Shown one piece after another: positions 1-51,113 of a stretch of DNA of 64,000 nucleotides (positions are counted from its first letter, which is position 1; each line of letters starts with the position of its first letter). Under the pieces are notes generated by a model. It saw nothing but the letters and a program-made list of their open reading frames with translations. It did no database searches and was not told the origin of the DNA. The translations under genes and the position numbers were made by a program. Origin of the DNA: Tetradesmus obliquus (lineage: Eukaryota; Chlorophyta; Chlorophyceae; Sphaeropleales; Scenedesmaceae); the NCBI GenBank assembly GCA_030272155.1, contig CP126193.1, positions 2,542,001-2,606,000 on the forward strand, written 5' to 3'.

Positions 1-3000
1 CGTGGCTGCGACAGGGCCTGGCGGTGACAGCAGCAGCTGCGAAGACCCAGTGAGCCGGCTGAAGCAGGCGCTGCAGCACACGCGTACTGATAGCGTGGAT
101 GCGGAGGCTGTCATGGCGGCATTGGAGGAGAACGGCTTCCATGCAACTGACGCGCCAGGTGGGCCCCGTCACATGTAACAGTAATGCCTGATTCTTGCAC
201 CTTGATGGTGCCTGTGTCGCCGTAAGCAGCAGCAGCAGCAAGGGGACTGGGTGGGCCCTTGCAGGCAAGAGCGACGGCAGCAGCTTCTGTGATGCCTGGC
301 ACCCTCATCTGCTTGCCTGTTATGCACGAATAAGACGTCGTTTGCCGAAAAGTTGTCGAACTGCACTCTTTGCACACGCTTGCACCTGACCGTACATCCT
401 GCAGCTTTTTTGTTTTGACGATTTTGCCCCTGCAGGCGGCGCATCTGTGTATGCCAAGCTGACGCTGGATGGCGACAGCCACACCAGTTGCATGGTGTAC
501 TGAAGTGCCCTGTCTGGCCCATCACCCTACACCGGCAAACATGCATTGCTGCTTGCAGCGCGTTTGTGTACGCCAAGCTGACCCTGGATGGTGATGCCTT
601 TTGGTGTGCTGTTTGTCCCCTGTGCACTCAGTCACCCTGCACCCGCATAAATGACCCTGCAGGCGGCGCGTCTGTGTATGCCAAGCTGACCCTGGATGGC
701 GACAGCCACACTAGCCGGGTAGTATACTGAACAACCCTATCTGCCCCCACCTTACACCCCCATCCATGCCTGTGTCCTTGCAGGCGGCGCGTTTGTGTAC
801 GCCAAGCTGACGCTGGGTGGCGACAGCCACACCAGCCGCGTGGTGTGCTGAATAACCCTTTCTGCCCCCATCACTTCACACGCCCTTCCATGCATGTGTC
901 CTTGCAGGCGGCGCGTTTGTGTATGCCAAGCTGACCCTTGATGGAGACAGCAACACCAGCTGGGTAGTATACTGAAACCCTGTCTGCCCCCATAACTTTA
1001 CACCCTCGTCCATGCCTGTGTCCCTGCAGGTGGCGCGTTTGTGTACGCCAAGCTGACGCTGGATGGCGACAGCCACACCAGCCGCGTGGTGGAGCTGGGC
1101 CAGGCAGGGGAGGCCGTGTGGGAGCAGAGCTTCTGGCTGGCTGCTGCAAGGCCTGCAGCGCCAGGCACCACACTGGAGGTGGAGCTGCTGGCCAGCAAGG
1201 ATGACAAGTGAGGCCATCTTTGCGATTCTTTTGTATTTTACAAAAAGCCGCATGCAGCAGGACTCCAGTCAAGTAGTCCCCAAAGGCTTGACAGATGTGG
1301 CAGCTTCTGGTGCTTTTATGCAGTGGGACTCTGGGCTTGTGGCAAGCTGCAACGCTGCAAGCGCCTTGCAGTTTACTGCTGTTGGCGCTGCAACTCACAG
1401 CAGGTCACATGAGGAGCAATACGCACATCTGCAGTCGTGCATTTGATGTTGAGCAAGGCAGCTGGGTTTGCACCCACTGACTCTACCAGCAACGCATCAT
1501 GACTTCAACACGCATCGTGCTTGTTGTTCTGCTACCCTGCAGGACACGCGGCAAGCCAGTCGCACACGTCAAAGCACCCCTGCACCAGCTGCTGCAGCAA
1601 GCACATCACGCCGACAGCAGCAGCAGCAGCAGCAGCGTGCCTTGGTTCAAAGCCAGGCACGTGATGCAGGCGCGCTTCTCAGACCACTTGCATGGTAAGC
1701 ACCGCCCTGGGTGCCGCGCCTGATCATGTGCATGACAAGAATGTAACAATGGGCAGAGTAGAATTTGCCAGAGCAAGCTAGTGCTGCTGGTAAGTAAGTA
1801 ATCGAATTCGAGGCTCCTTGATTGATTGGTGGCCCAGCAGCTGACTGATCTATGTGCCTGCTGCTGCTGCTGCCGCCGCTTGCAGGTACGCTGTCGTTCA
1901 CTGTGGAGGCAGCAGACTGGGACAGCCGCGCTGCGCTTGCAGGGCTGTCGCGCACTCTGCCGGAGCCCGAGCCAGCGTACAGCAGCAGCCAGTCTGGTGC
2001 TGCAGGCAGCCGCAGCCCTCAGAAGCAGCGCTCAAGCCTGCAGCTGAGCAGGACAGCAGCAGAGGCGGCAGCTGCAAGTGGAAGCGCACCAGGCTCACCC
2101 ACTGCACAGCAGCAGCAGCAGGTGCAGCAGCAGCAGGAAGGTGCTGCGAAGGCGGCGGCGTTGAACAGATCAGATAGCTCTGTGTCCAACAAGAGCGAAG
2201 GCGCTAGGAGCACAGCAAGTGGTGCTGGTGGTGCTACTGTCACCAGCGGCAGCAGCAGCAGTGGCAGTGGTGGCGTCGCCAAGGGTGCTGCGGCTGCTGA
2301 TGTGTCTGCAGCAGTGCAGGGTGCTGCTGCTGCTGCTGAGCAGCGCGCACCTGCTGGAATGCTGGATCTTGCTGTGAAGGCGTTTGACACGCGAAAGTGA
2401 GCAGCAGCAGACTCACACAGCTTGCCAGACTGATCATCTGCTTCTGACAGCAGTCACATGCATGCATGACGTTCAGACTGCAAGCCAATTGTCTGTGCTG
2501 ATGAGAAGACACAAACAAACACGCATAAAGTGGAAAGCCAGCTGATCTTCAGTTAACTCAAAAGTCATATTGCCTCCATGTTTGCAGGCCGCTGGATGTG
2601 TTCTTTGTGCTGCTGCTGGGCCCCTACTGCCTCGTGAGCAGCACCAGCCACTCCACGCACCACCACAGCTGGGGCTGGCACCTGCAGCTGCCTCTGGGGG
2701 ACCCCTCAGACATGCTGACGCTGGTGAGCAGCTTGCACAGATGCCTGCATCTCCCCCACATGCACCTGCACAGGCACCTGCACAGGCACAGGTGCCTCTT
2801 GCAGCACACACATGGCACCTGCACAGGCACCTGCAACTGCCTGGTTCCTGAAGCTGGCTCTCTGCTGGCTCTCTGCTGGACTCCCACTCAGTAACATGCA
2901 CGCTGATATGTGCGGCAGAGTTGCCTCAGCCCATGCTGTCGTTCTGCCTGATCGCCAACGGCCTGGGCCAAACGTGCCAACCGTTCTGCTGAATATGTTC

Positions 3001-5811
3001 TGTGGCTGCTCGTGTTGTTCTGGCAGGCACTGTTTGCGCGCGAGGACCAGGCGGGCGGCAAGCGCAAGGTTGGCGCCAGCATGCTGACCAACCTGTTCAG
3101 CAGCAGCATCCGGCTGGTGGGCAAGCTGCGGGTGCGGCTGAGCACGATCACGCCCAACGCGCCGCTCAACATCACGCTGCCGCTGCAAGGTGCGCGGACT
3201 GGGGATGCCTATGGCGTGATGCATGCAAGAAGAAAGTGTGTTTGTTGCGTCTGGAGAACTTTACACAAGTCTGGTGCATGTGCAGCAATGTGTCAGGATA
3301 CATGCGGTTTGGCTTCTCCTGCACTGCTTGCAGCTGGCTCGCGTTGCATAGATGCTGCTTCCTGATGTTCGTGCCTTCCCTACCTATATCTTGCCTGCAG
3401 GCGAGCGCACTAACCTGCGTGCTGGCCACAGCTCAGCGGCCGTGGCGCACCTGTAATTCCACCTGCTTGCAGCTGGCTGGCGTTGCATTGATGTTGCCTG
3501 ATGTTCGTGCCTTCCCTACCTGTATATATTCTCTGCAGGCGAGCGCACCAACCTGCGCGCTGGCCACAGCTCAGCTGCCGTGGCACACCTGTACTTCCAC
3601 CTGCTTGCACCTTGCTGGCGTTGCATTGATGTTGCCTGATGTTCGTGCTGTCCCTACCTACATTTTCTCTGCAGGCGAGCGCACCAACCTGCGCGCCGGC
3701 CACAGCTCAGCTGCCGTGGCGCACCTGTACTTCCACCTGCGTGTGCCGCACCTGCTGCGCTACTTGGGCTGCTACTTCCGCTTTGCTGCCTGCACGCCCG
3801 AGCTGTACCTGCTGGCCAGCAGCAGCAGCGGCTGGGCCGGGCCTGGCGGCGGCAGCCAGGACTGTAGGCTGGAGGCGCTGGCTGCGGAGGTGCAGGAGAC
3901 GGCTGCACGGTGCGTAGTGCGCTTGATGCAGTGGGTTGCTGCTGTACTGTGTCGTCCCGCTGCTGCCGCCAGCCAAGACAGGCTGGCGGCGCGGTGCGCG
4001 GCGTATGATTGCTGCAGTGGTTTGCTGTTGGTGCTGCCAGTGATGGCGGCGCCGTGCACACACAGCATCTGCCATGTGGAAAAACACCATCAGCGATCAG
4101 ACACACCTCTGTCAACTTGTTGTGAATGCATGGATGGCGCAAACTGGCACACAGTCTGCCTATGTTTGTGCACTGTCTCCGCGTTCTCCCGCAGGTGGAT
4201 GGAGCAGCAGCAGCCGTGCCTGCCAGCCAAGATCTTCCGCAAGGTGCAGGATGACGGCAGGGCGGAGTTCACACTCAGCAGGACACGCGCCAACTGGCGG
4301 CGGCTGATCCTGTTGAGAGAGGCGGCTGCGCCAGCATGGGCAGCCTTCCAGCACCTCTGCAGCTGGGAGAGCACGCTGCACAGTGTGGCCTGCTACTGCG
4401 TGATCCTGCTGCTGGGGGTGTATCCGTCCAAGGTGGGCGGCAAGGGAGGTGGAAGGTGCATCAGCAGTGCTGTTAACATGGAGTTTGCTGTGACGTGCGG
4501 GTGGATGGTGTGCCGTGTTACAGTGTTTTGGTGCACGAGGTGCTGCATTGCGTGAGGGGTGTGAGCAGCATTACCATGCGGCGTGCCCTTCGCAGCATTG
4601 ACAAGGAACCAGGGGCAGGATACAGTTGATCACTGACAGACTGAGGCTGTGTGGGCAGCAACTTGTTGCATGCGTTTAATGTTGCTGGGCTGACTCCTCC
4701 TGCGCTTCGTGCACTTGCTGCAGGTGCTGTCTGTGCTGCTGCTGCTCTGCTGCATCGCGCTGGCGCGCTCAGCCTTCTCACGGCCCGGCAAGCCCACAGC
4801 AGCCATGGTGTCGCTAGCAGCAGCTGCTGCATCCACATCTGGCTCTAGCAGCACAGCTCGCAGCAGCTCCAGCACTCCCAACCCAGCAGCAACAGCAGCA
4901 GTAGCAGCAGCTGGCAGCAGCAGCAGCAGTGGCCAGATGGAGGCTGGCTGGCAGCTGCTTGAGGCGCGGCCGCCGCCTGTGATGTGTGACGTGGCGCTTG
5001 CTAGTCCCGATGACGCGCTGCCTGGCACTGCCGTGCCCACAGACCCCTACACCAGCCTGAAGCAGAACTATGATGGGCTGGTGCAGTTCCTGACGCTGGT
5101 GAGCGGCTGCTGGTGGAAAGTGCGAGCTGTGCTGTGTGGCCCTGCCACTTCATTTGGTGCTGCAGCGTGAAATAAGGCAGATGGTGCTCACTTGCAGGAC
5201 TGTTGTGCACATCAGCTACGTACAATATGCCTTTGCACTGCTGCCTGCTGTGCCGCATGTGCCTGCAGGTGCAGAATGTGCTGGACCACTGGGCCGCAGC
5301 TGGTGAGCGGCTGCAGCTGATGTTCAGCTGGTCTGACCAGCTGGCCACTGGCGTGGTGCTGCTGGTGCTGCTGCTGCTGGCTGCTGGGCTGTGGCTGCTG
5401 GGCCTGCGGGTGCTGGTCACTGCAGGCCTCCTGTGGGTGTTCAGGTGAGAAAGGAGGGCAGCTGACAGGTGGTTTGATAGGACTTGTGGGTTTTGAGCAT
5501 GGTTGATGCTGGTCAGGTGATGCTGGACTGCTGCTGCTTGTCACAGCTAGCGAGCCTGTTCCTATCGCTGCTGCCTGCAAGTCAGCTGTAATGCTGAGAG
5601 CGAGCTTGCTGCAGCAGCTCCAGTAGCAGGTGCAGCAAGTACTTCCTGCACGGTCAATCAGCTAGGCGTGGCCAGCAAGCGCTCTGACTGTGTCGCATGG
5701 CGTGCTGTGTGTGTGCTGCGCTGCAGGCACCCCATCCTGCGTGACCCGCTGCCGCCGCCTCCAGCCAACTTTGTGGCACGCATGCCCACGCAGTCTGATG
5801 TGATGCTGTGA
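1..5811 (+). CDS. MCTP: MCTP-like protein (multiple C2 domains and transmembrane region), 3' part
   Basis: The gene enters from the left edge. Exons in consistent frame are 2-158, 1030-1207, 1543-1694, 1886-2396, 2588-2723, 3027-3189, 3675-3909, 4195-4432, 4724-5098, 5269-5444 and 5727-5811, giving 801 residues in the window. A C2-type beta strand segment (FVYAKLTLDGD) opens exon 2. Exon 4 holds a roughly 150-residue Ser/Ala/Gln-rich insertion. The C-terminal half has a hydrophobic segment across exons 8-9, then FSRPGKP, a second long hydrophobic segment in exon 10, and the ending FVARMPTQSDVML. That architecture and ending match the phosphoribosyltransferase C-terminal region of plant MCTPs, whose members tether ER to plasma membrane, often at cell junctions, through calcium-dependent C2 domains. 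Upstream C2 domains should lie outside the window. Family call is strong. Exon 2 and exon 7 are preceded by tandem copies of their own heads. Confidence 0.83.
436..1092 (+). repeat. Six tandem copies of acceptor plus exon-2 head
   Basis: Heads start at 436, 559, 663, 784, 908 and 1030, spaced 104-124 bases. Each is preceded by a pyrimidine-rich stretch and (T)GCAG and then reads GA(F/S)VYAKLTL. Only the sixth continues into the exon. Copies 1, 3, 4 and 5 reach an in-frame TGA about 60 bases after the AG, and copy 2 has diverged. This fills most of the 871-base intron 159-1029. Confidence 0.9.
2761..2842 (+). repeat. GCACCTGCACAG minisatellite in an MCTP intron
   Basis: Imperfect 12-base units GCACCTGCACAG recur across this stretch of intron 2724-3026. 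GGCACCTG near 2774 faces CAGGTGCC near 2790, so a short hairpin can form. No coding role is seen. Confidence 0.8.
3401..3745 (+). repeat. Three tandem copies of acceptor plus exon-7 head
   Basis: Heads start at 3401, 3539 and 3675 (offsets 138 and 136), each after CTGCAG, and each encodes GERTNLRAGHSSAAVAHL when joined to the preceding donor at 3189. Copy 1 then hits TAA. Copy 2 stays open for a few codons beyond. Copy 3 is the functional exon. The intronic part of the unit (GTTGCAT...GATGTTCGTGC) is also repeated. Confidence 0.9.
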
Positions 5812-6712
5812 AGCAATGCTGCAGCTGCAGCTGCTGGCACTTGTATCGCGCTTGCCAGGACACGCTGCAGCAGTGTCACCAGCAGTGTGGAAGGACGTTG
5901 ATTGTTGGGCCTAACACAAGCTTTGCATACCGCCTGGCCGGCATCATAGTGAGCAGGCCCTGCTTGATTTGTTGTTGGTGTTGTGCACTTTGGTTGCTCA
6001 TTGGTCTTACATCAGAAGTTGCCTGCGTCATGTGGTGGAGGGCAGATCATCATGTGCTAGAACTCCATTGGATCTGGTTGTCTGCAGCATGTAGCCTCCT
6101 TTGTTTTTGGTACTGGTGGCTTGGCAGGTAGCACTGGCACAGCGTGTGTGACGAGCAAGGCACACATGTAGGAGGGGAGTGCAATCTGTAGCACTGTTGT
6201 GTCCACACACAGTGCGAGGGATCACCTGCGTTTAGTCACTGCTGCGCCCTGTTACCTTGCAAAGCGCCCTCAGAGCAATGTCTTCCAGCACCCTCAGGAG
6301 ACTGGAGCAGAGCAGTGGATGGTGTGTTGCTTGCTATGCGATACTGGTCACTTGAAACGCTGCTGCTGCGCGGTTCACCATGATTAAACGAGTTGAAATG
6401 TTGAGTTTCAGCGGGCTTGTTGGGCTTAGATTCTGGCGGTTGAGGTGAACTGAGCAGGTGGCCCCCGTGCTATCACGTGACAGGCGAAGAGCTTCTCAGT
6501 GGAGTGCACGCTCGCCCCCTTCATCACGAGCTTAAGCAACGTAGTGTTTGTTGCGTCAACTTCCTTACCACACTAGGGCTGTGGTCATAACGTAACTTGG
6601 CCGAAGGGTTCCCGACAGACTGGCACACAGCAAGATATAGGCCAGCTCCACATTGTTTGCTGCAAACAGCCCTCTGTTACTCGCCGCTACTTTGATAGGT
6701 CGACTAGGAACA
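5812..6712. other. Spacer between MCTP-like gene and DUR3
   Basis: Holds the 3' untranslated region of the upstream gene and the promoter and 5' untranslated region of DUR3. I see no TGTAA signal and no convincing open frame. A palindromic TCACGTGA lies at 6473. Confidence 0.6.
6473..6480. promoter_or_regulatory. TCACGTGA palindrome upstream of DUR3
   Basis: A perfect palindrome with a CACGTG core, about 230 bases upstream of the DUR3 start codon. This core is bound by bHLH and bZIP factors in plants and algae. A functional role here is inference from position only. Confidence 0.3.
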
Positions 6713-9700
6713 ATGGTGGCCTCACCTGCCTGCTTTGACTGGCAGCCCTACTCCTTTGGCTTGGGCACCGAGCACTTCACGCCCGGTCAATGTTCTTTCT
6801 TTGGATCCAGTGAGTTGAAAGCAGCGGCGGATCAACACTGTGATCACTGGCATGTCAAGGAGCCCAAGTGTCCCAAGTGTTGAGTACTTGGTTGCAGCAC
6901 GCCTGACCCGCTTTTGCCCTTGATCTACAGGTCATGCAATCTCTGAGGCCGTCGGATGGGTGCGCTGCTTTGCTGACGGAGATAGGACGCAACTGTAGTT
7001 CATCCAGCCGATCGCAGTGCTACATTGCAGCAGCAACCTGCTCACAGTTTGCAACATGTTTCTAGAAACTACAATAGCGGTTGAGCAGTGTACTCCTGCA
7101 GCCACAGCGATCGCGGCCCGGCAAACCTAGTTCAAGACAGAGCGAAGGGCGGCGCTTCCTGCAGCGAGGGACTACACTACTTCTAGTGCTGCAGCCGTTG
7201 CTTTTATGGCAGTGCTTGAGGTACCATCAGCCGGGTCATATGGAGCACGTGGGTACTGCAGTCAGCCGCTGCGCCCTCGCAGGCTTGCATGCCCAGCTTG
7301 GTACCCGATTCACTTGGTATACATTGACTAAAACGATGCTTTCTGGCATTGTTTGGGTGTCTCCTGCTGCAGGTGATTGTGGTGGCCTTTGGTGCCCTGT
7401 TCACCCTGCTTACCAGCGTGCTGGTGTTCCTGGACTACAGATTTGGAGGAGCCAGCCACACCAGCGAGCAGTTCTCTACTGCTGGTAAGTACTGCATACA
7501 TTGGCCAGCATGTGGCACGACCCTTAAGCTATCAAACTGCTCAGGCGCCACATGCGCCCAGCGTGCATCACACCATACGCGTGTGCATCCATCCATAGGT
7601 CCGGCCTATCTGTGACGGACGATCCTTCGGACAATGCGCAGCCGTTGACCAAGACAGCATTACTCCCTGCAGCATGCACACTGCCAGAACAAAATAGCCT
7701 GTGATGCTGCCAGTTCCTCCTCTGCTGCTGTCTTCCCACGATTCATGCTATACGCGTGCTGTGCCCGACATCAAGCGCTGCTGTGTCTGCTGCTGCTTGC
7801 TTCCTGTGCAGGCCGCAGCATCAAGGCGGGCCTCACGGCATGCGACATTGTCTCCAAATGGACCTGGGCTGCCACTCTGCTGCAGTCATCTAATGTGAGT
7901 CAATTGCATCCACTGCATCACACCAGTTTGCACTTTTGGTTCGATCCATAGGCCTGCTGTCATCTGTTGTTGGCATCACACATGTGCGGCCAAGCGTCGA
8001 GGGTTGAGGCACCTACAACCGCACATCCTCTGCCGTAGATGGCTGCAGGCTGCCTGATACTGAGTCATCATGCACAAATCATGCATGCCATGCAACCATG
8101 CGGCACGTGCGCAGATAAATTGCTGATGTTACGCTGGTTGCAATGTATGTGCAGGTGGCCTACAAGTTTGGCGTCTCTGGCCCGTTCTGGTATGCTTCAG
8201 GTAAGCCTACAGCTGCTCCCCCGCCACCATGCATGCAAGCATGTGGTTGTTATCAGCACACCTGTGTTTCTGGTGTGGGTGCTCTTCCAATTGCGTAACC
8301 TTTGCCATGCTCTGCGCGCATCACGGCTGCGCGGTCGCTGCTCTGCTGCTGTAGCATGCTGCTGTACTCGCTGCCTTGACCCACAGTCAGCGCTCCTTCA
8401 ACACTGTTGCAGACATAGTGAGCACACTGCTGACCTGCTGCTACTGGTGCTGCTGCTGCAGGCGCCACCATCCAGGTGCTGCTCTTTGCTGTGCTTGCTG
8501 TTGAGATCAAGCGCAAGGCGCCCACCACGCACACCTGCCTGGAGATCATCAAGGTCCGCTGGGGCACAGCAGCCCACCTGACCTTCCTGGTGTTCTGCCT
8601 GCTCACCAACATCATCGTCACATCCATGCTCATCCTCGGTGAGTGCAATAGCATGCAGTGCCGCGAGAATATGCTGCACAATGTTGCACAGTCGCACACG
8701 TGTGTGATATCGCGTCACTTCCCTGCTCATCCTGGGTGTGTGTGCAATACTGCGGCACACAGTGCAGCGTTGCATGCTTGTAAAGCGCCACAATTTCCTA
8801 AAGGCTTGGCGCAAACTCTAAAACCTGTGTCGAGCGTCCAGTTCTGCAGCAAGCTGCAGTGCAGCCCTGCCGGCCTGCACATGGCTTGTGTCGCTCTCTG
8901 CGCACGCACACATCTGCTGATGTATATGCACCATCTGCAATGTGTGAAATGCATGCAGGTGGCGCCAGTGTGGTGACTGCTCTGACTGGTGTGAACATCT
9001 ATGCGGGAGCCTTCCTCATCCCTGTTGGGGTCATGCTGTACACCGCTCACGGCGGCCTGAAGGCAACATTCATCGCTGCATGGGGTGAGACTGCGGCCCA
9101 CAATCTGGTGCCTTGACAAACAGAACAACCGCTCACGCTGGCAGTGCCGCTGCTGCAGCGGCTGGCCATAGCATGTTGCTTGCTGTCAAGGGTGGCGCTG
9201 CAGTCTCTGGGTGTTGTGCAGCCATGCTGCTCGCAAACAGGAGGCACGCCACGCAGATTAATGGCACTACAGGTTCCGCTTGCTTGCTGCAGTTTTGGCA
9301 GCACCACTTGCGCTCCACTCTCCCGCCCACCCCCTCTAACGCAATCATGTCGCCACCCATCTGCTGCTCTCTCCCACCTTCTCTCCCGCTGTGTTCAACT
9401 GTACACAACCCAACCCCAGGCCACGTGGCGGTCATCTACATCGCGCTGTGCACCTTTGCCTTTTTGATCTACGCCTCCCCAAACAGCAAGGTGGGCCTGG
9501 GCTCCATCAGCCAGGTCTACGACAACCTTGCGGCCATGAGCATCAAGCGCCCTGTGCAGCACAACAAGGAGGGCAGCCTGCTGACGATGTGGTCCATGGA
9601 GGGGCTGGTGTTTGGCATCATCAACGTGATTGGCAACTTTGGCACCGTGTTCGTGGACCAGGCCTACTGGTGAGTGTTGGTTGGGGGCAAGTTAGATGTG

Positions 9701-9874
9701 CTGCGGCAGTGTCACAGTGCAGCATCGACAATGCAAAGCATTTAGCTGTCTGGTGGGCGCGCGAGTGAACACATGGTTTCATTGTGCCCACTTAACAATG
9801 ACCTTCCCATGGCCAGGTGCTCCATGCACAGAGAGTCAGAGAGTCCCTGGGCACCACCTTCCTGCTGCTGACAT

Positions 9875-9923
<49 letters not shown>

Positions 9924-11592
9924 ATCAATCACAGGCAGGGCGCCATTGCTGCCAAGCCCTCCGCCACCTACCGCGGCTACCTGCTAGGAGGCCTCTGCTG
10001 GTTTGCTGTGCCCTTCACCATGGCCACATCCATGGGCCTCGGAGCCCGTGCAATGAACCTGCCAATCAGCATTGAGGAGTCGAACGCCGGCCTCGTCCCT
10101 CCTGCTGTAGCCACAATGCTGCTAGGCCCCGGCGGAGGCTTCCTGCTCGTCTTCCAGCTTTGGATGGCGGTGACTGCTTCTGGATCGGCAGAGCAGATCG
10201 CTGTTTCCAGCCTGATTGCGTATGACGTGTACCGCAGCTACATCAACAAGAAGGCGTCCGGCAAGCAGATCATCTTTGTGTCGCGCTGCATCGTGCTGGT
10301 GTACGGCGTGCTGTCCGGCGTGCTGGCCATCGTGCTGCTGTGAGTACCCTGTCAGTGTACTGGCTGTGTATGTACAAATCAATCTGCAGCTGTGCGCGCC
10401 GTCCCACATCACTCAATTCAAACGTCCTGGTCTATGCTGAGCCGCAACGAGTACCGCCCAGCTGCCTGTTTCGGCCGTTGCTGCTGGTCCTGCTGCCTTG
10501 TGTCAATGATTGTATCTTCCTGCTCGTAGTAATAGCCCACAGCAAGATCTGGCTGTCCCTTCGCATGTGTGCACCTGTCCACCGCAGCGGGAGATTCTTG
10601 ACCCTGACTGACTCAATTTTCTGCTGGTGCGTGTCCCTCCCTTCAAACTCACCAATCTACCAACCAACTGCAGCAAGATCGGGCTGTCCCTGGGCTGGGT
10701 GTACCTGTTCATGGGCATCGTGGTAGGCTCAGCAGTGCCCCCTATTGCCTTCTCCATCACCTGGTCAAAGATCAGCGCTGCAGGAGCCATCTCAGGTGCT
10801 ATCTCAGGCCTCGTGGGAGCAGTCATTACCTGGTGTGCTACTGCCAAGGGCCTGACAGGCGCTGTTACAATCGACACCCTGGGCGGGGACTTCCCAATGC
10901 TTGCCGGCAACGTGGTGGCGATTGGCCTGTCTGCAATTGTGTGCATCGTGGTGTCGTTCATCAAGCCACAGGACTATGACTGGTGAGCGGCTGGCTGGCG
11001 GTTGCAGGCAATTGCGCAACCCTTGTTCAACTCTTGCTATTTGACCACTGAAGGTGGTGCTTGTTGGCGTGAAAGGGATGCATCCGTCTGATCAGGTCAT
11101 GTGTCTGCCTGGTATCAATGGCTGCACATCAGTTGTGCACATGTAGAAAATATTTTCCCCTGTCACCCCAATGCGCTTGCTCCTCACACTTCCAACATTG
11201 CTCTGCCGCTGCTGCTGCTGCTGGTGCTGCTGCTGCTGGTGCTTCTGCTGCTTCTGCTGCTGCTGCTGCACCCCAGGGCTCTGATGAAGGAGATCCCCAT
11301 GGTGGAGGACGACCCCAACGCCTTCTCAGCAGACGGCGAGGTGAGCAGCAGCAGCAGCAGCAGGTGCAGCAGTGAAGCAGTAGTGAAGCAGCAGTGCCTC
11401 AGCAACCAAGCCGCCACATGCGGCTGCGCTTGAGAGCAGCGGCACTGTTCTTTCTCTACGATTGTTGCTTCAGCTGCGTGGTGTGCCATGGCTGTGTGGC
11501 GCGCTTGCATTGCCTGCTGCATGTCCTTGGTCGCATAGCATAAGTTGGTAAGCTCCCAACAACAGCAAGCTGAAGTGCTGCATGCACATTTC

Positions 11593-11623
<31 letters not shown>

Positions 11624-14686: not shown

Positions 14687-14691
14687 TGTAA
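14687..14691 (+). terminator. TGTAA polyadenylation signal, candidate for DUR3
   Basis: TGTAA is the usual chlorophyte polyadenylation signal. This one falls exactly where plus-strand G+T richness ends. Use by DUR3 would imply a 3' untranslated region of about 2.5 kb. An earlier TGTAA occurs near 13345. Confidence 0.35.
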
Positions 14692-16060
14692 ACCGCTCTT
14701 GTGCCGTGCTGCATTTTTACCAACCCACACGGCACCACAAAGACATCACTGGCTTGGTTTGGCAAGCCGTGCTTGCATACAGCCAAAACATACAGCAGAG
14801 CTCTGCGCTGCTTGCGTCGCAGCTGCGGGCTGCAGCTAGTCGCCATGTACTGCAGCAAAGGGCAAGCGGCTCAGAGCTCACCACAGACCTACAGTGCTCT
14901 ATGTGGCCTTCAGGTCTCTTTCAATTTCATCAGTCACGCCTGCAACAAGTCGCCATTACAGTATGGCCATCACCTGCGCAGCAACATTGCTGCAGCCACG
15001 TCTGCTCAGCCTGATCAGGCACCCACACTCATTCACAGTTCATCCCACCACCTGCTGTCAACTCCAGCCGTATATGGCTGTTACGTAACAGCACCCAAAT
15101 GCAGCCAGCTGCCAGCGTCTCAGCAACTAGCCGCAACTAACAGCACGACAAAGCAAGGAACCCTCAGGCACAACAGCAGGCCGGCCAAATCATGATAAGC
15201 CTGAGGCCCACGATCTACAGCCCCTCAGACAACTGACAAGCTCTGCAGCAACACCCAGAAGGTGATCAAATCACCGTGTCACTCTGCAGTGTGATCGCTC
15301 TCCATACACAGTACATGACAATGCAAAGCAGGCCTGCAATGCGTCAGTGACTGATGCAGCAGCAGCTTGATCACACTGTGTGCACAGCCACGATCCGCAT
15401 GGCGTGCACTTTACCGTCTCATCAACTTGCATTATGTAAGGTTGGGTTCTGCTCACAAGCTGCTGTACACAAGTGGCAAGAGAGCGACAGCAAGCCACCA
15501 ACACAGCTCCTACAACTCTGCATCCCTACAGAGCTGCTCCAATTATACGTCCAAAGTCACAAAAGACAGACAGCCTGTTACACTGCCATTGCAAGCACAC
15601 TCAGTGTGCGTGCTGTTGCAGCTTGCACAACTCAGACGGCTACACACGAGTACCAACACCATGAAGTACGGCACAGTACAAAGGGTGTCGTGACAAGCAA
15701 CAGTACATTCACAGGCCCCACGCCTCTACATTATTCAAAAGCATAACATTGCACTGCTATGCGCGTCCAGCTGCTACGTGCAACGTGGTACGACGCCAAG
15801 CATGCTTGCAACGTGCTGCAAACAGTCATCAAGGCTGAGAAGAGACACACTTTCAGCAAGCGCAACCTCCTCAGAATACTACAACATTTGCTGAGCTATG
15901 CACAACTCAGGATGAACACAACTAATACAGAGCTGTCAACAGCTTCCCCAGCATCAGCACCCAGTAGCAGCGAACTACTGCCATGCATTGCCACTGTCAC
16001 CGTGCACAGACCAGCAAACAAAGCTAGCTGGTAAACCATTCTTTTGAATCAGCACAAGCA

Positions 16061-16253
16061 ACACACAGAGCTGTATGGCTTGCAGGACAGCAGCCACACA
16101 GGCACAGAGCCGGCCCTGCCCTAGAGAGAGGCTTGCCATAGCCTGACTTGGGGAGCACCAGGCCACTCAGCTTCTCAACACACAGAGCTGTGCGGTTTGC
16201 AGGCCAGCAGCCACACAGGCACAGGGCTGCCCCTGCCCTAGCCTGGCTTGCAG
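16061..16253. repeat. Two imperfect copies of a 117-base unit
   Basis: The stretch beginning ACACACAGAG at 16061 recurs at 16178 with several substitutions and a short deletion. It continues through CCACACAGGCACAG to GCACCAGG. It lies just downstream of the ATPase stop codon, so it is probably 3' untranslated. Confidence 0.75.
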
Positions 16254-16324
16254 AGCACCAGGTCACTCATCTTCCAGCACCAGGTCACTCATCTTCCAGC
16301 ACCAGGTCACTCATCTTCCAGCAC
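16254..16324. repeat. 22-base tandem repeat over the ATPase stop codon
   Basis: Three perfect 22-base units (AGCACCAGGTCACTCATCTTCC on plus) plus a partial fourth. On minus the innermost unit encodes VLEDE and the TGA stop, so the repeat spreads from the last codons into the untranslated region. Confidence 0.9.
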
Positions 16325-19300: not shown

Positions 19301-19341
19301 GCATTGGAAGCAGGTCTGGGCTGGGACTGCTGCTCACCCTG

Positions 19342-19381
<40 letters not shown>

Positions 19382-19534: not shown

Positions 19535-19566
<32 letters not shown>

Positions 19567-19679: not shown

Positions 19680-19714
<35 letters not shown>

Positions 19715-31964: not shown

Positions 31965-32041
31965 AGCACAATGCAACATCATGCATACTCACATAGCTAG
32001 ACGGCTCCCCAGGCCATCATGGCTGCTGCAACTAGCCACAT

Positions 32042-32129
32042 CCCACACTGCCAAGGAGGTGACCTGCCGCAGTTGGCAACTACCTACACCCCACACTGCC
32101 AAGGAGGTGACCTGCCGCAGTTGGCAACT
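32042..32129. repeat. 48-base tandem duplication
   Basis: Forty identical bases starting CCCACACTGCCAAGGAGGTG occur at 32042 and 32090. No gene overlaps. Confidence 0.9.
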
Positions 32130-36744: not shown

Positions 36745-39700
36745 GTTAGCCTGCCAAGCCTTTGAAACTGGGCTGTATGACTGTTTAGGCAGCGTTTAAA
36801 GATGACATGAAGTAGATCGCCGTGATGCACGCCAGGTTGCCGCACCTGAGGTTGGCCCTAACCTGCATGCAGCATGCTGTGCTAATAGTAATAACGTGAC
36901 GACAAAGGTGAAAGAAACCATCCTTTAGTTTTTTTTTTGAAGGTCAGACTACAAAGACTGGTTGGAGTAGCTTGGAGACGTATGTATTTGCTTTTTGGTG
37001 CAGTCAATCAGGTTTCTATAAGTCTCAGTTGTAGCATCGCATTCATGAAAATTTCAAAGTGTAGATAGACAGGCCTGCGAGCCTATATGCAAAGCAATAA
37101 GGACTTGCAAGTGAACCGGCACGGTCATCAATATGACATGGACTGCAATGCCCACCGAATCCAGCTAAAAACAATGATCGGGCTTAAAGAAAACACTTCA
37201 TGCGAAGACACACGCCTGGCAAGCAAGTGTTACTTTTGGACTGGACTGGACTTCACCCTTCATACTGATCTTCGTAGAGCAGCCGACCACTCTCAAAGCA
37301 AACTTGATAAACGACACCTCAAAAAAATTCATACAAAAGCTTCAAATATATGTTCTTTATAGCAATGCACGAAAGCACTCAATAGGCACAGCAGAAGGTG
37401 CACGTGCTCAGGTTCGCCGTTCTTTACACGGACTTTGCTCACGTGCGGCACTATGCCGTATTCATACTGCGTCAACAGTGTGTCGGTGCGTTGTTCATGC
37501 CACAAGCAGCATCGCGGCGTTGCAGCCGTGCAGCATGGAGGTGGGCAGGTCAGGTCATCCTAGGTGCACCATGATCAACAGCCCCATGGCCATGCCCCAT
37601 GGGGCAAGTCAGGTGGCCTGCCAGGCCAAGTGTTCACCACTGTTGGCGACACCTAGCAGCTGGAGCCGGCTGAACGCAGGCGTAGCCGGTCACTCGCCTT
37701 TCTGTACTCAGTACAAGGAGTCCTTGCAGCGGAGAGTAAACGTGTGAATATTAGGGCAACAACATGTTTTCCGCCGCCTCTCACTGTTTTCCGCCGCCTC
37801 TCACTGTGGCAGATGCCATGAAAGGCGGCGTGAGCTGAAGTTGACGAGCCTCTTCCAGCTGGGATTGGGGATCCCACCCCTCCACCCTTTCCTCCAAACC
37901 CCATAGAGACGCACCGACAGAATCCGATGTGCCAGGCTTGCAATAGCAGCTCATCCTGCCGCAGGATGATCATGCTGATAAGTACTAGTCTTGTGAAGCG
38001 TTTTTACACTCGACGATAAATTTTAGAGTAGGTGCATGGTTACGCACCTCCAGTAGATGCTGTACCCGCATGACGTGTTGCAGCAGATGCGCACTGTACT
38101 GCTGTCATTGCTTACTACGGCGTGGACATGCCACGTGCAGTGCTCGCGCACTTGCGGCTGCTCCTGCTTGTACGTAAATCCCGGTCCAACCGCCCGTGGC
38201 TGGGCTAAAAAAGCAACTGGAACGGCTGGATTTGTGCGGGTAATATCGATTGCCCAAGTAATGAAGGAGGAACTGGGTACCTTTCCAACCCTCATGAGCG
38301 GTAGATCGGGGCGCGGTTGCCGATGCCGATGACAAGGTATGGCTTACAAGAAGACTATTATTATTATTATGAGCGGTAGATCGGCTCGCTGGGCTTGTGC
38401 CTGAGGTGGGTTCAGTCCCATACTTTGGTATTGGTATTGGTATTGGTAAAGCAACGGCCAGCAACAGCACTGCCAGTGGCACAGCGAAAGCTGGCATGCT
38501 ACGTAGCATGTAAACATGCATGCAGAGTGCCACTGGCTATCACAAATAAAAATGAAGAGAAAAATTCGAACAGGCCCCAGCCTGCAAGTTCCTGCCTGCG
38601 CGCCGGTTGTGAGGCAGCAGGTTGCAGCGTGGGGTTGTTGCATGCACCGCAGGATGAGCATACCAGAGCCTTGTGAAGAATGTCAAGGCCCCAGTGAAAC
38701 AAGCGCTGCACTGATGCTGGAAGCATGGTACGCTGTCAGATTGATGAATGGCCCTTGATCAAATGATGCAGGTCCTGTGACAGCCGGGCACCAGGTCAAA
38801 GCAAGCTGTGTTATTGCAATGCGCTACTGATCAAGAGCACCTGTGCCCCCAGGCCTCCTGGCAATCCACGCGTGCTGCACTCAACATCGCTGCCAGGCGT
38901 GCAAAATGGTCAGCAGGTTCTTGCCTGAACACTGGCATTGGCAACAGCAGCTGCAGAAACAGCGCTGCAACCCAGCAAGAGGAAAAGCATGCTAACTTTG
39001 CCATGTGCTGGTTGGCAAGCGTGGCTGTATTGATTGTACGCATCTGTATCGTTGCTGTTGCGTGCGTGCTTGCCCTGCTTAAATGACTGTCAGCAGCTGC
39101 AGCAGTGCCACTTGCAGGAAACCAGCACAGAAACAGGCATAACAACAGAGTAGGCCCTGGTCTGCATACAGTCAAAAAACGATCTTAAACAGGAAATGCA
39201 CATGCACGTAGATGTGCATCCTATCACACATAAAGCAGCGTGGATGAGAGCCGACATGATGTCTTGAAGGTTTGAGCAGTGGCATTGATGTCACCATAGT
39301 GGTGTCTGGCCACAGCACTCTGTTGCTGCTGAATCCATATTCCTGACTGCTCCAAGCGCAGAGTCCGCACACCACATTCCGAACAGTCCGCTCACAGCAA
39401 CCCTGCTACCAAGATGAACGTCCTTATCCATTGCCGCTCAGCCTTGTACAGCCTGTGCCCACACCACACACCGCTTGTGCCTGGTGCCTAGGGTCGTCCT
39501 TTTGCCTGTCATACGACAATACGGGTCAAAAAATGTCTTAAGGCTAATCCAAACCCTTGCGGTGTCATTGATTTCAGAATCATCAGCAAGATATAAGCTG
39601 AAGTGTGAGGGTTACCAGTGTCACGCCTGTGATGAAGGCACCAGCCGAGCAGTACTGACATTGCTGTGATCAACACGGTGCGCAACGTTCCGTCAAAGCA

Positions 39701-40923
39701 TGCTGCATGCAGGGATGTAATGCCATCCTTGACTGTTATGCCATTCTTGACAATCAATGTGTCTGTACAGACACTGTGATTGCTGTGATCAACACGGTGC
39801 GCAACGTTACGTCTGTACACATGTGTAAGGGCGACGATGTGCATGCAGCTGCACGGCAATGTAAGAAAAGGAAGCCGAAGCATGCTTATTTTGCTGCGGG
39901 AGCAAGCAAGCTGCAGCAATGTCCCTGGTGTCAGTCCCCTGCTTGAGGATGGCTGCATTACACACCCAGCCGGACCGAACTGGACAGGCAGCATACCCCT
40001 GCTATGACCGGAGTTTACAGTTGCGTTGCCAACGGTGTATGTCATTCTATAGGAAACGGCTTCAACAAACTTCCCGCTACCCAAACGCACGCACCTGCTC
40101 ACAGCCTGGGCAAGTGCTCCCACTATCTTGGAAACGTACCCCTGTCATACAGCAGGCAAAGCACCAGCAGTGCCTATCTTCCTCTGCAACTGTGCACCTG
40201 CTCGCCATTGGTTGTAATCTAATCAAAACGGTTTATATACACCGCAACAGCTCGCGGGCCATGCGACGTAGAGTGGCAATGCTCAGCAACATATGTTGTA
40301 CTGTAAGAACACAAGTGCTCGGATTTAGATTGAAGCGGTGCTGGGCAGTGCACGTCTCCGATCATGGTTTTTAAGCACGTAGATATGCTGTGAATGCTGT
40401 ATGGCAGCTGGGTCGCACAGCAGACCAGCTGCAGGTCGCAGCTCCCGAAGGGCGGGAGGCGACTGTCAAGCACGGACTGAATAGTAAAGCTCAAAACCAC
40501 TATCCCGGCAACGTGTTTTGAGTTAAATTGCCCTGCTGTAATTCCTGCTTGCCACTGAGTCAGCGGTTTTGACAGGACCTGGCACACCACGCGACGTTCC
40601 GAGGGACTGTTTGGGGCCATTACCAACTACACTGGCCCAATGTGATCAGTTTCCTGTTGAGCGGCCGTTGTCTCGCACGTGTCTAGTGTCTCAGGTAATG
40701 CAGTCCCCGTGTCTGTGGGTGCCTCACGCATAGTGTGACGCGCATCCAGGCCGTCTCTGCAGTGTTTGGCTGCTGTTTACCAAACTTCAATCAGTAGGCG
40801 TCTTTCTGGGCCCTCGTTTGAGCAGCGGGTCGAAGGCAGACACCAAACCAACCTGAGGAGTTCTTGCAGCTTCGTGAGCTGGCGAACAGTCTGAACAAGT
40901 AGAACAACGTCATCACGGATTGG
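36745..40923. other. Divergent spacer between protease and GATA gene
   Basis: Contains the promoters of both neighbours. From about 36880 to 37380 the DNA is clearly more AT-rich than its surroundings. A 91-codon open frame at 37087-37362, rich in Lys, Asn and His, lies there with no family match. Small repeats lie at 37772-37806 (a 20-base duplication), 38296 and 38370 (GAGCGGTAGATCGG), 38350 (TTA run), 38426 (TATTGG run) and 39660/39779. No convincing gene. Confidence 0.5.
39660..39808. repeat. Exact 30-base direct repeat, 119-base offset
   Basis: ATTGCTGTGATCAACACGGT and the following ten bases occur at 39660-39689 and 39779-39808. The intervening DNA has shorter repeats (ATGCCATcCTTGAC and ATGCCATtCTTGAC). 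Confidence 0.9.
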
Positions 40924-44584: not shown

Positions 44585-46457
44585 GCCAGCTGGCAGGCGC
44601 AAAACAGACTGCAGCACCTTGTGTGGGCGATGACGGGAAGGTGCACAGGGATGTGCACATGGCAGGGCTAGTGAGGGGCCCTTTGACGAGCCTGTGTGTG
44701 TGGTGCGTGTAAGCTGGCTAGGTTTGGCTGCAGAAGCCAGCGGCTGGTGGGGTAGAACTGAGCACGTTTGTTGCGTGGCAAACACTCTGCAAGCCAGCCC
44801 TCAGGACAACGCTGCAGGGTTATGTCGTGGCAGTACTTACACCGAACTGGCGGGGGTGGGGGGTGGGGGCAGCTGGCGGGGTACCCTTTACCTAAACCGC
44901 GTGTAATAATGTGAGTATGTGCAGTTTGTGTACAGCAGAATCAGTCAACACTGCCGGGGAGCTGTGCTGCAGCCTGCTGTGTGCAGGGGCGCTGGCTTGG
45001 AGGACGTGTGTGCACGTCATGTGTTGGCTGCACCTTTGACCATCTTGCACTTGCACGGGCGCTGCAGGGGCTGGCTAAGACCACCCTGCAGCTGCCTGTG
45101 GTTGCACGAGTTTGACACCTTTCGCGCAGTGTGTGTGTGGCGACACGCGTCAGTTTACCTTCCTCTGGTGCACCAGGTGCACTGTAGTACGCACTTGCTG
45201 GGGCGCTTGGCAGCTGTGTCTGCAGCTGCAAGCACCTCTCAGCATCTCCACCTCCTCTGGTTACCTTTCCAGAGGTCGCGCAACCAGCAGAGCTCATGCG
45301 TCTGGCTTCTCCTATGGGTTGGCTTGGGCCTGGGCCTTGGGTGTGGTCCGGGACTGGTTGGCAGCCAGCTGCTATGCGGGTGTCTGGCAATGCATGCATC
45401 CTTCGTGCTGTACATGCTGTGGCGGCAGCGGCTGCTTGTGATGCTGGCTCGTGAGCTGTGAGTAGGCAGCAGGTCGTGATGGGATGGCGACGTGATACCA
45501 CCGCTGTTGCAGTAGGTGTTCTTTGTAGTGTAGCAGACACTGCCGGACAGGGCCATGACATGTGCTGTGTGCGCTGAGAAGACGTGCGGTTAGATGGTGT
45601 GCATGTGTGCAGGCGGGGTTGAGTGATGCAGGGTGGGTGCTGTGGCGCGCTTGGGTGCTGCAGCAACAGCATTTGCTGCATGCCGTGTGTACAGCATAAC
45701 TGCTGGCAGGCACATCACATTACAATTTGACGCAAAACGTGTGGAGTAGAATGACATGATACAGCATGTGTATATTCAATTCTCTTAGTTTCCTTACCTG
45801 CGATAAGCGGACGAAGGCTGAAAAGGTGGTGTCAGCCTTCTTGAGTACTTTTGATGGTCGCGTTGAATTGCTTTTGGCTGCCATTTATTTGCTTGTTGTC
45901 GGGAATGCAGGGACGGAGTTTTCCGTTGATGTACATGTCTGCACATGCCTGCCTGCACTGCAAGGATCTTCAAAATTGCTGCTTGCATGAGCGGTTTGTA
46001 TTGCTTCAAGTGGCGCGAGTGATCAAGGGATGCATGCATTGCTTGGTGTTGTTTGTGTCCGCAAGCAGACTGCCAGCCTCTCCTGCTGTTGCCTCTTTGG
46101 AGGTGTCTTCCTACTTTGCTGGACAGCTGGATGTGTAACAGATCACTTTAAGCATCATGAACGCGCGCATAAGTCTACGTTAAGTGCTCAAATGATTAAA
46201 GTACATGAGGTGTTCAATGCTGTAGGCGCTGCGCCAATTCAAAAGCGAAGCTCGCCGTGAAAGTCTGTCACTCGTCGTCACGCTGACATAGAACCAGCGC
46301 CAACGCCGAAAGCTGTGCTAATGTAGCAGCTGTCGACGTGGATACCCAGACATTCTATTGCTGGTGCTTTCCAACAATGTCAACATCCCAGCTGCTGCTT
46401 CAAGTAACGTGCTTGTGAAAAAGACTTCTAGCCCTAGCTGTCCTCGTCAGCGCACCT
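44585..46457. other. Spacer after the GATA gene, probably long 3' untranslated region
   Basis: Plus-strand G+T-rich as far as a TGTAA at 46134, after which composition becomes neutral. Earlier TGTAA signals occur at 44706 and 44902. No gene is supported. Confidence 0.5.
46134..46138 (+). terminator. TGTAA at the end of the G+T-rich stretch
   Basis: Candidate polyadenylation signal for the GATA gene, about 1.55 kb past its stop, at the point where G+T richness ends. Nearer signals at 44706 and 44902 compete. Confidence 0.35.
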
Positions 46458-49400
46458 ATGGAGACAGCATCCGCCGTGCCACAGGCAGAAGAAGCCAGCA
46501 CAGTATACGAGGTTGGTGCATGGTAGCAGCAGCTGCTTGAAGGGATGAAGCTGCTTGCTGCTGAGCAGCGTGCAGTGCTGGTGCTGCATCCATGCATCTT
46601 CGGTGTGCACTGTAATATGCCGTGCTGCTGCTGCTGGTGGCAGACATTGCCAGATGCATGAAGCACGATCTAGCCTCATGCAGGATGAAGCTATTTGAGA
46701 CTGTTGTTTGCATTGAACAAGATAGACTGAGGAACCTGCTGCTGCTGCACAGCGGCATACACAGCAATGCAAGCTGCTGCTCTGGCATAGCTGCACTGGG
46801 ATGCTTGCAGTCTAGCTGCCTGCTCAACTCCTGCCAAGCTTCGAGCCTCCTGTCTGTGGTGCACGCACACACCACCTATCCTAATAGGGCACTTGATATG
46901 ACACCCTAGTAGGCATGCCGCTAGGATGCTTGCATGCATTTGGATGCAACAACGATGTCGACACATCGCACACGTGTACATGCAGCGGAGCTTGCACAAG
47001 GGCGGGTGGTCGCCTGTGGCAACTCATCTGCATGCATCCGCTGCTGTTGACTTTTCATGTACCTGCACAGCCCTATGTAAAAGGAACGATTTTTAGCTGT
47101 ATGTGGCCGCAGCACATGCCCATCAACATCCTCCGCTGTGCTGATACACGCTTTCCTGCAGACATCCATCGCTGTCGTGGACGAGCCGAAAGGCATGCTG
47201 GCGCCTGAAGCAGCAGGCAGCGCTGCTCCACTGGATGCCCACCACAAGATGCTGCACGAGGGCTCCATCCTCTCCTCACACTTCAAATCTTACCAGCAAG
47301 CCCTCTCAAAGTACACAGCCGCCGCCAGCAAGTTCATGCACGCCGCAGACGACTTCATAATCAGCGCAGGCCAGCCGGCAAAGTACGAACACAAGCTGAC
47401 GCCAGAAGGCCAGGCCGCTGCTGCTGCTGCCGCTGCTGCTGCTGCACCTGCACCAGCCGGCGTAGATGAGACTGCAGGACCTGCTGCACTGGCAGCGCCA
47501 AGTGCATTTGCAGCAGATGCAGCACAGCCGTCCACGCTGCCACTGCAGGGCCCCGTGGCAGGCTACTACATCTGCCCCGGCATGCCTGGAAGCCCTGCGC
47601 TGGGTGCTGCTGGGCTGACACACACTGCGCCTGCTGACATCCTGCTGCCCAGGCAGCATGAGGCGCTGTTCAGGTGGGGCGCAGGGCTACTGCATCGCAC
47701 ACATCGTACGGACGACAGCGCCAATGCAGCGCTTCACCCTTGGGAAGTTTGTGGTGATTGCAAGCGCGTCACTTACAGCATCGCACACATCGTACGGACG
47801 GCAGCGCCAATGCAGCGCTTCACCCTTGGGAAGTTTGTGGTGATTGCAAGCGCGTCACTTACAGCATCGCACACATCGTACGGACGGCAGCGCCAATGCA
47901 GCGCTTCACCTTTGGGAAGTTTGAATCCTACACGTGTCCGTCGTACTTGCTGGCGGCGCGCTCGCTTCTGCTGCAGGCTTAGCCGAGCCCATCCGTATTT
48001 GGTTATCATAACGTTGATGTTTATCTGTGGTGCTTTGCAGGCACGACATGCAGCGCAAGCTGATCGCAGCCGGCAGTGACGGCCTGACAGCAGCACTGCA
48101 GGAGAAGCTGGCGCCTGCCTTCAAGGTGCGGCGGAGCCTCCTCTGCGAGTGCATCATGCATCAGCGCATTATTTATGCATCATCAATTCACTCACAGTGC
48201 ATCATCAGTGCATCGTCAGTGGAATTATGGGGCACCCGGCTTAGCCTGTGTGCCAGGAGCAGGCGCATTTTGGCTGCCAACAGCACACAGCCAATGCTAT
48301 AACAGGGCTGGTTGTGTTATGTGTGCTAATCCACTGGCTGGCTGACAAAGGCAGACTGGTATGGTGCAGTCAATCTGCTTTTTGCAGACACCCAGTGGAT
48401 TAGCTACAAATTGCGGCCAACAAACTGAACAGCACTGCACCTGCCTTCATCGTGTGACTACACCACTACACTGCTACATCATGGTAATCCTCATGCTTGC
48501 TTGCATGGATGCACTTTGACGCTGCTGCGCCCTTGCATTGCTGCCACCCTGCACTGCTGTGCTGCTGTTAACATGGAGTTTGCAGAGTTTTCTAGCATGT
48601 AAAGCAGCTGCTGTGCTGCTGCTACTGCTGCTGCAACTGCTGCTGCTGCTGCTCCTGCCAGGTGTGGCTGGGTGTGTATGATGAGTGCAAGGGCCTGCTG
48701 CCTGAGGTGGAGCGGCTGAGGAGGGACGCTGAGGGGGCACTGGCGCGCCTGCAGCATGCAAAAAAGAAGGTGAGCCCCCCCCCCAATGCATGGTGCTGTA
48801 TTGAACGTAGAGGCGATGATGGGAATCCAAGCAACAAGGATGATGCTGTGGCAGCATCGGACATGCCAGGCACTCCTGTGGTGTGCACGTTGACGTGATG
48901 TTGGCTACAAGGAAATGACTCGCTTTTGCATTTGCGCTTCGTGTTTCCTCTCACCACCAAGTCTGCGCCTTCTTGTCACTGATAGCACTGCCCTTGACAC
49001 CACAGCCGCCACCAATGCGCCCGCCGCCGCTGCTGCTGCTGCTGCCGCTGCTGCTGCTGCAGGTGCTAGAGGCCGAGGCCGCCTCCCCGCTGGTGAGTGG
49101 GCAGCAGCTGCAGGATGCCGGGCAGCTGCCGCGGGTGCTGGTGCAGGGCACTGCTGGCGGCTTGGTGGCCACGCCAGCTGGGCCACAGCGCCAGGAGATG
49201 TACCGCAAGGAGACCGAGTACACAGGTGTGGTGCGGGGTAATGTTTTGCTTACCTGGTGCTACCTAGTAGGGCTATGCTGTTGTTCAGCTTGTGGTGACG
49301 AGGTGTCTGGCTTCGGGGCTTTGTACTTTCTGCACTAATGTCAGCTTCAAAGAGCTCAGCGCCACTGACTGCAGAATTCATCTGCCTTGCAAGGGCGGCG

Positions 49401-51113
49401 GTGGCACATGCCAGGTTCCATGTGACCAGTTGTTCCTTGAAAACTAACCTTGCACACAATGTACACCTGCTGTTGCTGTGTCTCCCTGACACCTTCTGCA
49501 CGCTTGCTGCTCCATTGCCTGCACACCTGTGCTCCTGCTGCCTCGTTCATCTGCCCATCATCCAGATGCGTCTCTTGCATTCAAGCTGGCAGAGAAGGTG
49601 CTGCGAGACAAGCTGCTGCTGCAGCTGCAGCTGCTGACCCTGCCGGCATACTGTGCTCCTGCTGTCTTGTTCACCTGCCGCAGATGCTTCGCTTGCATTT
49701 GAGCTCGCAGAGAAGGTGCTGCGAGACAAGCTGGGCTGGCTCATGCAAGCAGGCGCAGGCCTCAAGGGCACTGCTGCTGCTGCACTGGGCCATGCGCTGC
49801 GCGCTGCAGCAGCAGAGGGGCAGCGAGGCCAGGCGCCTGGCGGCACTGCTGCTGCTGCTGCTGCTGCTGGGGTGGGCCTGAGGGCGCCTGGGGAGGAGCT
49901 GCTGGAGCCCTTTCCTGCACATGTGCTGGTGAGAGGGCAAAAAGCGCAGGACACAAGCCTGCGCTGCTACAACGAAAAGTTGTTAACTTGAGATGGGAGC
50001 TATGGTTGTGCCGTACTAGACTTGCACTTATCTGCCAGCTGTGCAATTATTTTTGGTTGCGACGTGAGCATGCTGCTCGTGTGGTACTGTATGTGGTGCT
50101 GCCTGCAGGCCCGCCTAGCCGGCCAGCACCTCCCAACCCTGCAGGCAGTGGTGATGGCAGATGCCAGCCGGCTGGCAAGGTGGGGCCAGCGCTGCCGCGC
50201 AGCCATTGCTACAGCAGCAGGCGCAGCAGCAGCTGCAGCAGGCGCTCAGATGCTGGCAGCAGCAGCGGCGCCTGCAGGCGCTGCCACTGCACTGCCTGCT
50301 GCTGGTGCGGTGGTTCCTGCAGGCCCGGTGCACGGCCTTGTGCGGACAGATGACAATGCAACGCAGCAGTCCGGTGCAGCAGGCAGTGCAACAGGGGCAG
50401 CAACAACAGCTGGCACCACTGCAGAGGTGCCCATGGGCGGTCCTGCTGCAGTCGGTACAGCAGCAGCACCAGTAGCTGGCAGCGCAGCGGCATATGCAGC
50501 GTCTGATAGCCTTGTTGGCGAGCTGCAGCAGGCGGCAGCAGCGTCAGACGTTCCGCTGGAGTTGCTTGCGGCAGCAGTGAGTGCAGATGTGCAGGAGCGC
50601 GAAGCTGTGGAGGCAGCAGCCAGCAGGGATGATGCAGCGTGGCACCTGCTGCATGATGCCAGTGTGGTGGCTGCTAAGGAGGAGGCTGTGCTGCTGCCTG
50701 CTGTGCTCAAGGTGGGCGTGGTGCAGAGGAGAGTTGTGCCGACATGACAATGTGGCGGCGCTGTAAGCTGTCCTGCCAGCCGTGGCTACATTGAGCACTT
50801 GCAGGACAGCAAGCAGCGAGTGTTTTGGCACCCCTGAACTATGATCATACCACCCCCACCGTGCACGACTGCCAGGTTTGAAGGACTTCTGTCATTTGGG
50901 AATTTGTGCAACGCGCCATTACTGAAGTGCGAGGCAGAGAGGGTGCTTGGTGACATGCCCTGCATGTGCTGCTGTGTTCACCAGCCATCTGCTGCTGCCG
51001 TCCAGCAGCTCCTTTGCTCCAGCAGACCATACCACACAGACGGTGCCTGTGACAGGCACCCTCAAGGCCACGACCCATCCAATAAAAACTGTGATGATAG
51101 TTTGCCCTGCTAT

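Follow-up and report, generated by a model that had tools for sequence, protein, structure and literature searches.

Copies of exon ends in adjoining introns of Tetradesmus obliquus: probable traces of recurrent short tandem duplication

The window, by which we mean the whole 64,000-nucleotide stretch of Tetradesmus obliquus DNA analysed here, carries an MCTP-like gene, DUR3 and an Ala-rich gene, together with the features collected in Table 1. Very many CTG/CAG runs are found throughout the window, both in exons and just before acceptors, and give rise to Ala, Ser and Gln runs. An earlier note on this DNA described five instances of a duplicated block composed of an intron end, its AG and the head of the next exon; those at exons 2 and 7 of the MCTP-like gene, in DUR3 and at the exon starting at 49684 stand, whereas the 86-base units of the Ala-rich gene do not.

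Table 1. Exon-end copies, arrays and the corresponding working exons in the window
Feature	Position	Strand	Remarks
Array before exon 2, MCTP-like gene	425..1091	+	Five intronic copies and working head at 1030
Working exon 2, MCTP-like gene	1030..1207	+	Gene model; exon 1 junction as in relative P0003
Array before exon 7, MCTP-like gene	3324..3743	+	Three full 138-base units: two intronic copies, working head
Working exon 7, MCTP-like gene	3675..3909	+	Gene model; exon 6 junction as in relative P0001
DUR3 exon tail, donor at 8639	8616..8645	+	Gene model
Weak donor-side copy of DUR3 exon tail	8713..8742	+	97 bases downstream of 8616-8645
Weak acceptor-side copy, DUR3	10543..10580 (end approximate)	+	131 bases upstream of working head at 10674
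Working DUR3 exon	10674..10982	+	Gene model; spliced protein matches SSF family
86-base array, Ala-rich gene	47688..47923	+	Within predicted intron 47674-48040
Acceptor-side copy before exon 49684, Ala-rich gene	49566..49615	+	
Working exon, Ala-rich gene	49684..49928	+	Gene model

The six copies of the exon 2 head claimed for the MCTP-like gene are all there. The first exon bases of the intronic ones lie near 436, 555, 663, 784 and 908; counted from the working head, the intronic copies are found 122, 246, 367, 475 and 594 bases upstream, and in the one at 475 the in-register AG is gone. The three copies described at exon 7 were likewise recovered, with the two intronic ones 136 and 274 bases upstream of the working head. 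The single decoy proposed for DUR3 is present in a weak form (38 bases, 84% identity, one indel), and the donor-side copy in the same gene, absent from the earlier note, is too short for the border test described below. Upstream of the exon at 49684 there is one copy, as had been stated, located 118 bases away and extending over 50 bases (90% identity). The 86-base units, taken at first for acceptor-plus-exon-head copies, form an array that is wholly intronic and includes neither a border nor an exon head; it consists of 2.7 nearly identical units and starts 14 bases past a donor. With this array removed, the offsets given as 86-138 bases narrow to 118-136 for the nearest copies. Other local duplications of the window are located at 16059-16324 (lag 117, next to a 22-base repeat) and, outside predicted genes, at 32028-32129 (lag 48) and 39654-39813 (lag 119).

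The analysis covered 354 kb of the 104.7 Mb genome, 290 kb of which lie outside the window, on C1, C2, C9 and C14. Gene models are computational and come from a self-trained finder with explicit splice sites, its training being based on sequence only. On 314 kb, the finder converged on the donor consensus CAG/GTGAGT and the acceptor consensus TGCAG/G (the slash marks the border) and predicted 46 genes with 232 introns, while the 40 kb of C14 served as a held-out block predicted without retraining. In the border test, each exon's first 60 bases were searched for in the upstream intron and its last 60 in the downstream intron, a score of at least 18 being counted as a match; only copies still similar enough to be found are detected in this way. 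Local repeats scoring at least 20 numbered 306 in four blocks (38 + 113 + 46 + 109) vs 0 in a Markov-4 simulation made of one run per block with C14 left out.

Outside the window, an exon-end copy was found in the adjoining intron at 16/212 acceptors and 19/215 donors (Fisher test, 0.72), i.e., at 35/427 borders (~8%), while the wrong-end and exon-middle controls taken over all blocks gave 1/613 (Fisher test, 3e-13). When all blocks including the window are considered at the same threshold score of at least 18, the counts are 20/254 acceptors and 19/256 donors. Taken separately, the wrong-end controls yielded 0/189 and 0/179, the exon-middle control 1/245, and the search in another intron of the same gene 0/280 and 0/278. 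Of 191 windows placed at random in introns, 14 had a partner at another place of that intron, partly because copies resemble each other. Reverse-complement copies able to form stems were considered as well and rejected, being found at 1 of 510 borders (1/254 acceptors, 0/256 donors). The process is general in our sample and symmetric between acceptors and donors, and its recurrence beyond one window, for which the earlier note had argued, is borne out by the excess over the controls.

The same counts bear on the mechanism put forward in that note, one anchored at acceptors such as replication slippage or template switching. The window taken alone speaks for such anchoring, as its test-passing copies are all found at acceptors (4/42 vs 0/41 donors). 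However, exon 3' ends, proposed there as the control, are matched outside the window as often as exon 5' ends (19/215 vs 16/212). The process is therefore not acceptor-anchored; this reading is refuted in the sample, and we give it hardly any credence.

Affected borders were counted in each block: 22/120 on C1, 8/65 on C9, 5/61 on C14, 4/83 in the window and 0/181 on C2. In the latter block (C2:1000001-1100000), exon-end copies were thus absent from all 181 tested borders, as against 39/329 elsewhere (2e-8). The introns of the C2 block are somewhat shorter (median 257) and its GC content is higher (0.605). Outside C2 and with the window included, 17 of the 35 tested genes have copies, and no clustering of affected borders by gene was seen (37 same-gene pairs vs 33.7 expected, P = 0.32, C2 excluded). 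Copy-bearing introns are longer than the others, with medians of 494 (n = 34) and 265 (n = 230), respectively. At four borders, three acceptors and one donor, copies lie within the exon instead of the intron.

In total, 76 copies were counted at the 39 affected borders, and 73 of these copies reach within 5 bases of the border. The exonic portion measures 23-102 bases (median 53), and its median identity is 0.91. In many of them the similarity stops 4-9 intronic bases past the border, just beyond the splice motif, and others repeat the whole unit. Steps between successive copies range from 87 to 250 bases, 62 of 73 falling within 85-170, and their median of 126 agrees with the clustering of unit size near 120 bases suggested earlier. 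In six full-unit repeats located outside predicted genes, the lags are 78-149; because these lags are similar, unit size seems to be a property of the duplication process. It might be set by the length of a replication fragment or of a nucleosome, which is only an idea. Within arrays, nearer copies tend only weakly to be younger (35 pairs for, 26 against). A spacer-anchored search returned 15 matches for 399 queries, 12 of them at already known introns, too small a yield for weighing the conservation of spacers against that of exon parts.

Full-unit duplications, in which head-to-tail units of near-constant length are present, were recognized at 20 loci: 7 acceptor (of which one, C1 44781-45217, probably represents a read-through array predicted as exon), 5 donor, 1 intron-only, 1 multi-border and 6 intergenic. 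They include fresh repeats, such as one on C14 with a lag of 242. At 62 further, partial-unit loci, no more than a portion of the unit has remained similar; these comprise 14 acceptor, 17 donor, 3 intron-only, 2 multi-border, 11 intergenic, 10 exon-internal and 5 gene-edge cases.

Which of the copies is the working one was checked in three genes against independent proteins, and these comparisons suggest that it is the one contiguous with the exon body, which we infer for the other genes too. A COX15 model from another chromosome is identical to a UniRef Tetradesmus obliquus protein at 367 of 370 residues without gaps, and two affected junctions lie inside the alignment. For the MCTP-like gene, the junction of exons 1 and 2 is present in relative P0003 (judged by eye) and that of exons 6 and 7 in relative P0001, and extra copies are absent from both; the names of these two relatives resemble transcriptome accessions. 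Relative P0002, in which the 12 opening residues of exon 7 are missing, perhaps owing to a difference in annotation, gives no junction support. The third gene is the mitochondrial-carrier gene OEZ86_013444 (C11:1228900-1233600), a paralogue of a sampled gene, in which copies occur at most borders, at least six by our own reading; at each such border, its annotated protein employs the copy directly attached to the rest of the exon. One donor array of this gene has units near 240 bases.

These comparisons also argue against an artefact of gene models or assembly. The gene models are self-trained, and in C1 genes 5 and 10 fresh in-frame arrays do seem to have been taken as exon. Nevertheless, the proteins encoded by working copies fall into known families (COX15-CtaA, 6e-103; mitochondrial carrier; protein kinase; RabGAP-TBC) and match independent proteins, and an identity of ~91% combined with unrelated spacers is not what assembly duplicates look like. 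We consider an artefact very unlikely. The arrays of the C1 block at 44782-45217 and 67746-68349 have units of 120 and 108 bases, both multiples of three, and are predicted as in-frame protein repeats; they might be real repeats or exon-end arrays read through.

Overall, we favour a scenario in which short tandem duplications of about 90-180 bases recur and are tolerated when one border is straddled, the other copies becoming decaying intron, and we assign to it a probability of about 0.7. The recurrence of such units is the part directly visible in the data. When a single exon-intron border, and no other, falls inside the unit, the old mRNA would still be made by splicing at whichever copy adjoins the exon body; the duplication would thereby be tolerated, and the remaining copies would turn into intron. 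Acceptor copies would then accumulate upstream and donor copies downstream, and the intronic copies would decay like non-coding DNA. Many of them may represent older or different versions of the exon end.

Several observations stand against parts of this scenario. Tolerance alone may not account for the concentration at borders: under random placement, 53% of tolerated full-unit duplications should be intron-only, vs 1/13 among the single-border-or-intron cases. A real preference for borders may be at work here, although few fresh duplications are available and pairs lying only in intron, lacking a conserved side, fade faster. The 100 kb of C2 with copies at 0/181 borders and two copies with frame-restoring paired indels also speak against the favoured scenario, and the codon-position data discussed below do not fit simple duplication followed by neutral decay.

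It is tempting to suppose that the copies are retained for a function, either as splicing decoys or as rare alternative exon ends, and their splice signals lend some colour to this. AG or GT is kept in 69/73 copies (three of the 76 were left out of the splice-site counts, being more than 5 bases from the border), and donor copies score on average 6.2 vs 7.2 for the working site, with 16/32 equal or better. Moreover, the exon part is kept better than the homologous spacer in 31/31 copy-copy pairs, and decay is slow relative to synonymous change. However, the loss of AG or GT in 4/73 copies equals the neutral expectation, most acceptor copies have lower scores than the working site (mean 5.8 vs 7.6; 7/37 equal or better), and the 31/31 result is biased, as copies were chosen by exon similarity. 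The earlier note supposed that the copies would supply alternative splice sites; predicted use of the intact ones would lead to a stop or a frameshift in 63/69 cases, so useful sites are not what they appear to provide. Among the 76 copies there are 16 indels, none a multiple of three, and 4 stops, and two copies contain frame-restoring -1/+1 pairs. The frame-breaking indels and stops indicate that no reading-frame selection acts on the copies at present. Retention for function thus appears improbable to us.

The differences between copies and working exons are less easily explained. By codon position, they number 61, 52 and 216, and the changed codons comprise 190 synonymous and 109 non-synonymous ones. 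The third-position ratio, computed on 72 copies of at least 25 bases at 38 borders, is 3.90 (bootstrap 3.11-5.03) and becomes 4.17 when each border contributes a single copy, as against 1.82 expected if the copy decayed neutrally and the exon changed only synonymously for an equal time. Several copies show 25-36% change at third positions and none at first or second positions. At multi-copy borders, sites where the copies are alike and only the exon deviates number 1, 2 and 19 at the three codon positions, and changes confined to a single copy 34, 29 and 59; hence, synonymous change of the working exon exceeds the decay of the copies. First- and second-position decay across bins of third-position change was 0.007, 0.039, 0.058 and 0.043 without a steady rise, a test limited by the detection threshold. 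Because their differences from the present exon are mostly synonymous, many copies seem to record an earlier or otherwise different coding state of the exon end. In a carrier gene on C1, the copies have Q for S, as do two of four relatives, which paired indels may explain; in the C11 carrier, two of three copies have W for R, W being the residue of relatives and absent from the working exon.

For the synonymous excess, either a diverged-allele source or constraint on the copies might be responsible. The former would be a special form of the favoured scenario: unequal exchange between deeply diverged alleles would bring in copies that were once working exon ends on another chromosome and fell silent once joined in. 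Such exchange would jointly explain the synonymous differences listed above, the recent decay and the diverged spacers, which are 0.745 identical in the 34/72 real-copy pairs where they are recognisable and unrecognisable in 25/72. The COX15 model differs at 3/370 residues from the T. obliquus database protein, presumed to be from another strain; strain divergence from P0124 was dropped, this being most likely the assembly's own protein. On the other hand, the exchange would demand very large synonymous divergence for one species, and fresh whole-unit arrays clearly arose inside one chromosome lineage. A paralogue or homeologue source was rejected, as a genome-wide search with one copy (of 73) recovered that copy, its exon and its sister copy and no other locus; this lack of a second locus argues against paralogues and not for alleles. 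Exchange between alleles is a possibility to be taken seriously, although we lean against it.

Going further, one might speculate that introns form a fossil record of exon ends, holding earlier or alternative versions with their splice site, brought in by exchange between diverged alleles and restorable by contraction. We regard this broader idea as rather unlikely. If it were true, exon ends would be a small recombining multicopy family with one member expressed. Earlier coding states of genes in current use may survive in the copies, which are likely to mislead gene prediction and are associated with longer introns. In addition, intact-looking copies ~90-180 bases away amount to a natural large-scale test of how the spliceosome chooses the working border.

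In the open full-text literature (subscription papers being mostly uncovered), no description of exon-end copies in introns was found. NAGNAG tandem acceptors can be set aside, as the smallest step here is 87 bases vs a few bases there, and so can introner-like dispersed elements, given that the one searched copy (of 73) had no other loci genome-wide. With decoy exons and cryptic sites, our copies share intronic splice sites that potentially compete with working ones; decoy exons would show an effect on splicing or intron retention, and the decay of the present copies looks neutral. Intronic minisatellites are head-to-tail arrays whose units measure some tens to hundreds of bases, and some of our arrays are likewise made of whole units. 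Possible points of difference are the concentration of the present repeats at borders in the sample, the narrow band of unit lengths and the often unrelated spacers beside persisting exon parts.

Tandem duplication also gives rise to mutually exclusive exons, and there too duplications span an exon and adjoining intron (PMC6071210). In those cases the whole exon with both splice sites is duplicated, whereas here 23-102 bases with one splice site are; the exons concerned are mostly longer than their copies, and in eight introns inspected by eye the far end of the copies did not generally carry another splice site, so that complete cassette exons were rejected. Tandem genomic duplication is an accepted route of intron gain under the AGGT model (PMC3443670), which shares with our scenario a short genic duplication tolerated since splicing removes the extra copy. 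In that account, an exonic AGGT is duplicated and an intron is born (PMC3443670), while here an existing border is duplicated and the intron lengthens, with ~1-7 copies. Intron gain of the AGGT type was rejected for our cases, as nearest-copy distances of 87-250 do not equal the intron lengths, which are 281-1258 in most rows; the few short predicted introns (55-67) among copy-bearing rows are read-through arrays. Overall, the events are of the same kind as known tandem duplication, but they are placed at an existing border and occur at high frequency.
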